Shown: positions 17,833-23,245 of the stretch, one piece after another
How positions within the stretch are numbered: the first letter of the stretch is position 1
How the letters are laid out: every line of letters starts with the position of its first letter
NCBI GenBank assembly: GCA_024760545.1
Contig: CP060501.1
Location: 2,393,501-2,457,500 of the forward strand
Origin: Nitrospira sp.
GTDB lineage: Bacteria > Nitrospirota > Nitrospiria > Nitrospirales > Nitrospiraceae
Length of the DNA stretch: 64,000 bases
Direction of reading: 5' to 3'
Made by a program: the position numbers and the translations under genes
The notes under the pieces: model-generated
Seen by the model: the letters and a program-made list of their open reading frames with translations, nothing else
Told to the model about the DNA's origin: nothing
The model's database searches: none

Positions 17833-18360
17833 TCAGACCTTTAAATTGGCCTTGACCTGTTCCGGTTGAGTCACAAACACACGCTTTTGCATGATGCGCT
17901 CTTGCAGCTTCAGAATACCGTCCAAGAGAGCCTCTGGAGTCGGAGGGCAGCCGGGCACATAGATGTCGACGGGAATGAACCGATCGACCCCCTGCACAAC
18001 GGGATAGCTGTCGTAGATGTTCCCGGAAGTGGCACAGGACCCCATCGCAATTACATACTTGGGTTCCGGCATTTGGTCGTAGATTTTTCGAATCACCGGC
18101 GCCATCCGACGACACACCGTACCGGCAACGATCATCAAATCCGACTGCCGCGGAGAACCCCGAAATACTCCCGCCCCGAACCGGTCCATGTCGTACCGCG
18201 AGGAGACAGCCGCCATCATCTCGATGGCACAGCAGGCAAGTCCGAAGGTCATAGGCCAGAGAGAGCCCTTCCTGGCCCAGTTGACGGCCTTTTCCAGAGA
18301 CCCTGTAATGACGTCAGGAGCCCCGTCTTTGTCATGGCGTCCCAGTTGGATCAGTCCCAT
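17833..18360 (-). CDS. nuoB: NADH-quinone oxidoreductase subunit B
   Basis: The subunit that holds cluster N2, the last Fe-S centre before quinone. Cys ligands are seen in [19 protein letters not shown] and [10 protein letters not shown] chose ATG at 18360: TGAGGG lies about 5 bases ahead and the protein then begins [13 protein letters not shown]. An in-frame start at 18402 would overlap nuoA and add 14 unlikely residues. The length is about 175 residues. Confidence 0.95.
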
Positions 18361-18367
18361 ACAACCC

Positions 18368-18751
18368 TCAGTCCCATTCCAATGCGCCTTTTCGCCAGGC
18401 ATACACGTACGCCACGATGAACAGCCCGATAAAGATCAGCATTTCGATCAGCCCAATCACCCCGATCTTGGTGAAGACCACCGCCCACGGGTAGAGAAAG
18501 ATGACTTCGATATCGAAGATGACAAACAACATCGCAAAAATGTAGTACCGAACAGGGAACGGCATACGGGCGTCAGAAAATGGTTCGGATCCGCATTCGT
18601 AGGTCGATAACTTTTCAGGTTCTGGGTACCTGGGCTGCACAAAATAACTGATGAGCAAGGTCAACACTCCAAAAACCAGCGTCACGAAGATAAACAGAAA
18701 GACCGGGAAAAATCGTGTCAGATACTCGAAAAGAATTTCGGTTCCGCTCAT
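18368..18751 (-). CDS. nuoA: NADH-quinone oxidoreductase subunit A
   Basis: A 127-residue protein with three transmembrane helices, the first gene of the complex I operon. The conserved loop [12 protein letters not shown] (ND3-type, with the cysteine near the quinone cavity) is present, as is the helix [13 protein letters not shown]. The operon promoter must lie in the 18752-19222 region upstream. Confidence 0.95.
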
Positions 18752-20974: not shown

Positions 20975-23245
20975 ATGGGTTTGGATAGTCCCTCGAGCCT
21001 CCTTCGTCGAACGGAGGCATTGTATGCTGACGTCATCGTTCCTCGTCATATTGCTAAGGCATTCACGTATCTCGTGCCTCCCACCTTGACCAGAACCCTT
21101 GAAATAGGAAGCCGTGTACTGGTGCCGTTTGGACGAGTGGTGCTGGAAGGGGTCGTGATCTCGTTGAGCAATCACCTTTCCGTCGAGATGAAGGGCGGTG
21201 TCCTCAAAGAAGTCCGCTCGCTCGTTCAGGACGGACAAGATTCGACACTCCCTCCCGGACTGCTCGAACTATCCCGCAAGATTGCAACCTACTACGTTGC
21301 ACCCTGGGGTCAGTGTCTCCGGCTTGTATTTCCGCCGACGGCAATAAAGAAAACCTCACCTACACGATACGTTGCCACCCAGCAGGGTCACGAGGCATTG
21401 GCGACCGAGAGTTGCCCCGATCTCCTGGCGCCGACTCTCAGGCGAATTGCACGACGAGCTACGGGAATATCGTCGTCTACTCTTCAACCGACTCGTCAGC
21501 GCGCCGCCTCGCGGACGATCGATGCCCTCATCAAAAAGTCGTGGATAACGCTCGTGCCTTCAAACAACGCCGAGATCGGTCCACCAAAGCGGCGTGGGAA
21601 ACTCGTGGCGGACGAACAGGATCGCAGAACGCCGATGCAGACTCTTCTGCCTACAGAAAAGCTTCCTGAGGTGGATTCTTCCTGGGAAACTCACGTTGCC
21701 CATTGTCTGCAAAGTCACCGCATGAGGAAAATCGTTCTTCATGCTCCATGGCAGCATCGAATCAGAAGGCTTGCCGACGCCATTCAACAGACGCACGCAA
21801 TGGAGCGGTCTACCATTGTTCTCTGCGGCGAGATAGCGAGGGCGGTGTGGTTGAAAAACCTGCTCTCAACTCTCACGGGACTTCCGATTACTCTCGCATA
21901 CTCATCTTCAAGATTCGACCGATGGCAACCGGGGCAAGGACCCACTCCATCGATTGTCGTGGGGACCCGCTCAGCTGTCTTTGCCCCTCTTCGATCCATC
22001 GGACTGATTTGGGTAGACGGAGAGGAAGATCCGGCGCTCAAAGAACCTCAAGAGCCCCGTTATCATGCCCGGGAGGTGGCTGGTTTGCGAGCTGAAAGTG
22101 AGCAGGCGCTCCTTGTCCTCGCATCGGCTCATCCATCCCTTGAGTCGCGGTTCGACACCGCAGCCGAGATGTATCACGTTCCACAAGATGATAGTCCGCA
22201 GCCTCACATTGAGCTCGTCGACCTCCGCAATGAACCAAGAGGAACCTTGCTCAGCCAAAAACTCATCTTGGCGATGCGGGAAGCGCTCGAGAACCATGCC
22301 AAGATCCTGTTGTTTCTCAATAGGAAAGGTTATGCCAGAACCCTGGTGTGCCGAGACTGCGGCTGGGTGCCCCGCTGCCCCTCCTGTGCTGTGCCGCTCA
22401 CATATTACCGGGAAGCCGGCAGCCTGACATGTCGCTACTGTGGGTGCGCGGATGGGTTGCCGGATGTCTGCCCCTTGTGCCGTGCATCTCGTGTGAATCC
22501 CCTTGGAGACGGTACTGAGAGGGTTGAAGCCGAAGCTCATCGCTTGTTTCCACATGCCCGGCTTGTGCGGCTCGATGGCGATACACTCGGCCGTCCTACT
22601 TCCGCTCGTTCTCTATGGGAACGTGTGAGATCAGGGGCCTGGGATATTCTGATTGGGACGCAAGCCTTGTTTGGCCGGGAGCCACTGCCTCAGCAGGAAT
22701 TGGTCGGGATCCTTCAAGCAGATTCCGGGTTACACGTTTCAGACTTTCGAGCAGCGGAACGGACCTATCACCTGCTGGTGGATGCCGTAAGCCTGGCCCG
22801 TCCGGCATCCGCCGGGGGTCGAGTCATCTTACAGACGCGGCTCCCGGCACATCATGCCGTGCAGGCCGTGCTATCAGCAAATCCTGGTCAGTTCTATGAT
22901 GAAGAATTCACTGCGCGTCAGCTACTGAATTATCCGCCAGTCTGTCACTTGGCCGATCTTTCGATCACCGGAAAAGACGCGAAGATTGTCGAAGAAGCGG
23001 CCAAGCACTGGGGCGCGGAGCTTGGACAACCTGCCTGCAATCAGGAGCCTGTCGTCGTGTTAGGGCCGGTGCCGGCAATAAGCGGGCGGCCCTCCGGTCA
23101 TCATCACCATCGCATGCTGGTCAAAGCGACCGATCTCGGTATACTCAGTCGCAGGATCCATGACTCTGTCCAGCACATGGAGCGAGAGTATCACAAGGGA
23201 CGGATCAAATTTACCGTCGACGTCGATCCAGTTGAGACTGGATAG
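20975..23245 (+). CDS. priA: PriA-like primosomal protein N' with eroded helicase motifs
   Basis: A 756-residue protein collinear with PriA, the replication-restart loader. The N-terminal 3'-DNA-binding domain (YADVIVPRHIAKAFTYLVP) and the zinc-binding module (C459, C462, C468, C471, C486, C489, C499, C502) are intact. The helicase motifs are not. The Walker A region (expected GVTGSGKT) reads LHAPWQHRI at 255-263. DEEH is DGEED (348-352). Motif V reads ILIGTQALFGREPLP instead of the usual AKG-x-FP form. The arginine-finger motif VI, normally VAGRAGR, reads DAVSLARPAS (603-612). Surrounding blocks such as PRYHAREVAG and DFRAAERTYHLL are preserved, so the frame is real and under selection. It probably acts as a loader without ATPase activity. 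Confidence 0.9.
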   Translation: MGLDSPSSLLRRTEALYADVIVPRHIAKAFTYLVPPTLTRTLEIGSRVLVPFGRVVLEGVVISLSNHLSVEMKGGVLKEVRSLVQDGQDSTLPPGLLELSRKIATYYVAPWGQCLRLVFPPTAIKKTSPTRYVATQQGHEALATESCPDLLAPTLRRIARRATGISSSTLQPTRQRAASRTIDALIKKSWITLVPSNNAEIGPPKRRGKLVADEQDRRTPMQTLLPTEKLPEVDSSWETHVAHCLQSHRMRKIVLHAPWQHRIRRLADAIQQTHAMERSTIVLCGEIARAVWLKNLLSTLTGLPITLAYSSSRFDRWQPGQGPTPSIVVGTRSAVFAPLRSIGLIWVDGEEDPALKEPQEPRYHAREVAGLRAESEQALLVLASAHPSLESRFDTAAEMYHVPQDDSPQPHIELVDLRNEPRGTLLSQKLILAMREALENHAKILLFLNRKGYARTLVCRDCGWVPRCPSCAVPLTYYREAGSLTCRYCGCADGLPDVCPLCRASRVNPLGDGTERVEAEAHRLFPHARLVRLDGDTLGRPTSARSLWERVRSGAWDILIGTQALFGREPLPQQELVGILQADSGLHVSDFRAAERTYHLLVDAVSLARPASAGGRVILQTRLPAHHAVQAVLSANPGQFYDEEFTARQLLNYPPVCHLADLSITGKDAKIVEEAAKHWGAELGQPACNQEPVVVLGPVPAISGRPSGHHHHRMLVKATDLGILSRRIHDSVQHMEREYHKGRIKFTVDVDPVETG

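Follow-up and report, generated by a model that had tools for sequence, protein, structure and literature searches.

The window analysed here, i.e. the whole stretch of 64,000 nucleotides from a Nitrospira genome, encodes a protein of the PriA type (Table 1). Its gene begins with ATG, has no internal stop codon and yields a protein of 756 residues, which aligns with solved PriA chains in phmmer (E about 6e-69) and matches the Pfam domains PriA_3primeBD, Zn_ribbon_PriA and PriA_C. The original prediction of a full-length gene collinear with PriA is thus borne out, as is its claim of an intact DNA-binding domain (72.2 bits for PF17764) and intact zinc cysteines, which are kept at 8/8 positions (459, 462, 468, 471, 486, 489, 499 and 502). 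By PriA identity, the nearest named relatives carry the labels Nitrospira sp. and Nitrospirales, which agrees with an origin in the Nitrospira group. Close to priA, the genes for NuoB and NuoA, a portion of a complex I cluster, lie on the reverse strand (17833-18751).

The source genome (4.81 Mb in two contigs, 99.99% complete) holds a single match above the cut-off of the TIGR00595 profile, namely the priA of the window; of three weak matches, the two that were read are RecG and UvrB, and the third is a 1157-aa frame of Mfd size. The original prediction had allowed for a second intact priA, but none scores above this cut-off in the genome. The protein passes the automatic ‘replication restart helicase’ model (365 bits, cut-off 230), an annotation that is likely to misstate its function. 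NCBIfam PRK05580.1-3 gives 442 bits, below its own cut-off of 813, and the best model of the actinobacterial PRK14873 gives 206 bits against a cut-off of 812, so that this curated score is missed as well.

Table 1. Position of the priA-like gene in the window and of the domains and motif sites within it
Feature	Position	Strand	Remarks
priA-like gene	20975..23245	+	756 aa; sole PriA of the genome
3'-DNA-binding domain, residues 19-120	21029..21334	+	intact; Pfam PF17764, 72.2 bits (cut-off 22.7)
Former Walker A (motif I), LHAPWQHRI, residues 255-263	21737..21763	+	without G-S-G-K-T
Former motif II, DGEED, residues 348-352	22016..22030	+	DEEH in canonical PriA
Former motif III, SAHPS for SATPx, residues 384-388	22124..22138	+	from the alignment
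Kept block NRKGY, residues 449-453	22319..22333	+	from the alignment
Cys-rich zinc region, helicase lobe 2	22349..22480	+	Pfam PF18319; 8 Cys
Former motif V, DILIGTQALFGREPLP, residues 557-572	22643..22690	+	GTQ retained, K-G gone
Former motif VI (Q..GRAGR), SLARPAS, residues 606-612	22790..22810	+	VAGRAGR in canonical PriA
PriA C-terminal domain, residues 655-752	22937..23230	+	intact; Pfam PF18074

Helicase motifs and the remaining PriA body

Two groups of Nitrospirota share the motif state of this protein: clade A, which comprises the order of the window (families f1-f4) together with family f9, whose order is a neighbour within the same class, and clade B, a second eroded group in which the same residues are lost. 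At the site of the canonical Walker A motif, LxGVTGSGKT, the window protein reads LHAPWQHRI, and GSGKT occurs in no sequence of either clade. In motif II, the catalytic Glu has become Gly, and the first Asp and the second Glu are retained, the former in only 40% of clade A. Motif V reads IGTQALFGREPLP, compared with the canonical IGTQMxAKGHDFP. Across clade A, the replacements are LHAPWEHR-like in the P-loop, xGEED-like in motif II, SAHP in motif III and FxREPLP-like for AKGHDF in motif V, and GRAGR of motif VI has given way to unrelated sequence. LHAPWQHRI, DGEED, FGREPLP and SLARPAS, the strings that the original prediction had quoted, are indeed present and align with the respective motifs, but its wording that every motif is eroded goes slightly too far: while the nucleotide-handling residues are gone, GTQ, NRKG, the Pro of motif III and RYHAR are kept, like the second Glu of motif II. 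It had also considered that a canonical GxGKT or GRAGR might lie elsewhere in the protein; neither is found in the 756 residues.

The selectivity of this erosion is apparent from 75 reference residues, each with a conservation of 95% or more among the 134 canonical PriAs compared, which represent many phyla. Clade A has lost 25/33 of the ATP-motif residues versus 4/42 elsewhere (Fisher p 3e-9), and clade B 24/33 versus 4/42 (p 2e-8). All eight zinc cysteines are present in 100% of the 60 + 38 eroded sequences, and the GTR block, the aromatic-rich RYHAR loop and the FRAxER block are retained across clade A. As ATP-motif residues are lost far more often than others and these cysteines and blocks persist, the loss is, judging by the alignment, specific to nucleotide handling. 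An assembly or frameshift artefact was rejected, since every sampled PriA of the order is in the same state and the other SF2 proteins of the genome have their motifs.

Likewise, the overall structure is that of PriA. An AlphaFold (AF2) model adopts the PriA fold (pLDDT 84, pTM 0.82), its top Foldseek matches are all PriA, with Z 28-31 for the best solved ones, and VIA-align places it on ADP-bound PriA (4nl4) over 598 residues at 3.0 A with Z 31.1, compared with 20.9 for Mfd. By every structural test, the protein is therefore a PriA orthologue, but it does not pass as an active SF2 helicase, as it lacks the Walker A GSGKT, the D-E pair of motif II and the Q..GRxGR of motif VI.

Within the genus, dN/dS (omega) amounts to 0.25 for the 3'-DNA-binding domain (3'BD), 0.23 for lobe 1, 0.16 for lobe 2 with the zinc region and 0.19 for the C-terminal domain, i.e. 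the helicase core is under purifying selection although it looks catalytically empty. These values bear on the idea that priA is decaying, with relaxed selection on its helicase domains preceding the loss of PriA and its conserved parts as mere remnants. In line with this idea, the higher identity of lobe 1 over the 3'BD in canonical Nitrospirota PriAs (0.58 vs 0.37) has disappeared in clade A (0.40 vs 0.45), and four genomes (G159, G007, G017 and G220) yielded no PriA match, for which missing contigs are a possible reason. One of them, G159, is a reduced relative from the genus of the window (2.0 Mb, 99% complete), which may have lost PriA entirely; the function may therefore be dispensable in some lineages. 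However, almost all relatives have an uninterrupted open frame, nearly the whole order has the gene, the zinc cysteines are invariant and omega is equally low in the lobes (0.16-0.23), the 3'BD and the C-terminal domain. We thus consider ongoing decay very improbable; on these identities, what lobe 1 of clade A appears to have lost is only the extra conservation of canonical PriA.

The strong constraint on lobe 2, where omega is lowest, and the conservation of replacement residues within the genus (EGEEDxALKEP, FxREPLP) could also reflect a repurposed motor, whose pseudo-ATPase site binds another ligand or a partner such as DnaB, DciA or SSB. Between subclades, however, the replacement motifs vary (HAPWEHR, DGVLDYR, PAATHEL), a variability that suggests tolerance and not a new site common to them. 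We regard such a repurposing, which would be compatible with the scaffold role proposed below, as unlikely.

Distribution and origin of the eroded state in Nitrospirota

Across the 198 Nitrospirota genomes surveyed, PriA scores are bimodal, and an alignment of 140 PriA sequences from the phylum, a comparison that the original prediction had suggested, separates into two clear states, eroded and canonical, with the order of the window on the eroded side. By the sequences read, 16/34 families are eroded and 18/34 canonical. In f1-f4 and f9, the eroded state is fixed, being present in every PriA sampled. By contrast, the sister orders within the class of the window (f5-f8, f10, f11) possess canonical PriAs with the same domain order and zinc region as the window PriA, but with all helicase motifs intact.

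An RpoB tree separates the eroded genomes into two clades, each monophyletic: A, with support 91 (99 if f9 is left out), and B, with support 99. Parsimony on this tree yields two state changes. One common loss for both clades was rejected, if only weakly by the PriA tree (AU p 0.034 for a single origin), and RpoB keeps the two apart. Given the canonical PriA of the sister orders and the loss of the same residues in a second clade, there have been at least two losses in Nitrospirota. The position of f9 differs between the trees, with RpoB joining it to clade A (support 91) and PriA without the motif columns placing it near the canonical sequences; this family may share the loss of clade A or represent a third one. 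RpoB itself varies in length: two f20 genomes (G068 and G077; loci L353 and L351) have frames of 1724-1730 aa versus about 1330 elsewhere, which suggests a large insertion, and at the rpoB locus of G192 (L271), a non-rpoB open frame of 1405 aa is longer than the rpoB frame (1351 aa).

The genomic neighbourhood of priA is uninformative for the comparison of clade A with canonical orders. In clade B (f21, f23, f25-f29, f33) and in the canonical f32, a RibF-like gene is found downstream of priA, and this common neighbour is consistent with loss in place.

It is also conceivable that clade A acquired its eroded PriA through gene transfer, the donor being a lineage whose PriA was already dead, for example Actinomycetota. 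A free tree from a short search indeed positions clade A beside the eroded actinobacterial PriA (support 91), and with the motif columns removed, this join is not rejected (p 0.63). Yet a tree constrained to keep all Nitrospirota together has a log-likelihood 52.5 above that of the free tree (p-AU 0.946); as it is the better of the two, the join looks like the product of long-branch attraction or of a missed optimum. Furthermore, the window PriA scores far higher with the best PRK05580 model than with the best PRK14873 model (442 vs 206 bits), and pieces of motif II survive in some clade A sequences (VDEEHD in f4, VDQEDH in f2), which argues that erosion went on in place. While transfer thus appears quite improbable, loss in place is favoured because of the higher likelihood of the all-Nitrospirota tree. 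The original prediction of an independent loss that left a loading-only PriA is accordingly the best-supported reading, in view of the canonical sister orders, the monophyletic clades, the better-fitting Nitrospirota tree and the preference for PRK05580, with loading as the presumed remaining activity.

Comparison with known PriA pseudohelicases

PriA pseudohelicases are a known kind of protein, and the biochemical demonstration comes from Deinococcus radiodurans, whose PriA is devoid of ATPase and unwinding activity and binds forks and DnaB (Lopper 2015, PMC4504706). Like the window PriA, it has retained the PriA body with degenerate Walker A and B motifs, and just as the genome of the window lacks a clear PriB, no clear PriB or DnaT is found in D. 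radiodurans. Differences lie in the phylum and in the extent of the erosion: motif I has a K to R exchange in D. radiodurans, whereas in the window PriA it is erased altogether, leaving no P-loop, and motifs V and VI have disappeared as well. Since the catalytic motif residues are missing from a PriA body that is otherwise preserved, and the genome has no further PriA, the window PriA is, by its motif state, to be placed with the PriA pseudohelicases.

In Escherichia coli, the ATPase mutant PriA K230A supports DnaB loading in vitro, as stated in PMC10175261 with reference to earlier work and in agreement with the original prediction, and the PriA ATPase is dispensable for PriA-PriB restart in vivo (PMC10175261). 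K230A is a laboratory mutant that acts alongside PriB, DnaT and DnaC, whereas the loss in the window PriA is natural and old. Moreover, PriC was not found in the genome of the window, PriB-like matches are of SSB size and lie below the cut-off, and DciA is present instead of a recognised DnaC, matches of the IstB/DnaC type being weak and partial.

The Actinomycetota PriAs without helicase motifs (PRK14873) resemble the window PriA in that the same residues are lost and the gene is retained, but they constitute a separate lineage in the better-fitting tree, and the PRK14873 match of the window PriA is far lower. In a sample of 60 Actinomycetota (loci L238-L267 and L298-L317), 34/60 PriAs are low-scoring and 26/60 canonical; among the low scorers, 20 of the weakest and the four above the cut-off were read. 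A general statement that actinobacterial PriAs lack helicase motifs is therefore not valid throughout the phylum. We found no papers on motif loss in actinobacterial PriA, so that the genomes searched in this work are the basis of this comparison, and none on PriA in Nitrospira. In substance, the original prediction was correct; it overlooked the order-wide extent of the loss, the second clade and the precedent in Deinococcus. As far as we have searched the literature, what is new is the fixation across Nitrospirales, the second loss in the phylum and the availability of intact sister orders as controls.

Restart partners and a proposed role

DciA, a protein lacking an ATPase domain (PMC5720831), is present in the genome of the window (G000) and in 76/79 genomes searched. 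It was rejected as a cause of the loss, since it is near-universal in the phylum and also accompanies canonical PriA.

By analogy with the ATPase-dead PriA of E. coli and the PriA of D. radiodurans, which point to fork recognition and DnaB recruitment without ATP, we consider it highly probable that the window PriA is a restart protein that acts as an ATP-independent scaffold for fork recognition and DnaB loading. Its motif state predicts that it no longer hydrolyses ATP, although the degenerate site might still bind nucleotide. The protein would recognise abandoned forks via its 3'-binding domain, winged helix and zinc region and via those DNA-facing portions of the two lobes that remain. It would also offer a platform for the recruitment of DnaB, probably together with the ATPase-free loader DciA. 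As it would not unwind the lagging arm, restart would take place only where this arm is single-stranded or where RecG or another helicase prepares the fork.

More tentatively, and with somewhat less than even confidence, we propose that the whole order restarts replication without an ATP-using assembly factor, an ATPase-dead PriA and an ATPase-free DciA placing DnaB, and that the PriA motor is a dispensable module, which was repeatedly discarded: in Nitrospirota on at least two occasions, and likewise in Actinomycetota and Deinococcus-Thermus. That the motor was lost several times in parallel, alongside close relatives that keep it, amounts to a natural experiment on the purpose of PriA helicase activity.

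The distribution of two helicases was compared with that of the loss. RecG, whose motifs are intact in the genome of the window, occurs in 20/20 clade A genomes of the sample, but as most canonical genomes have it as well, it does not track the loss; a few genomes of clade B and of the canonical set show only Mfd-like matches. RecQ, which was rejected as a compensating helicase, is found in 12/20 clade A, 4/23 clade B and 12/20 canonical genomes, a distribution without a fitting correlation. RecG frames measure about 825-890 aa in the Nitrospira family (e.g. that of G000, L004:124-2772) compared with about 700-730 aa in most others, which suggests an N-terminal extension.
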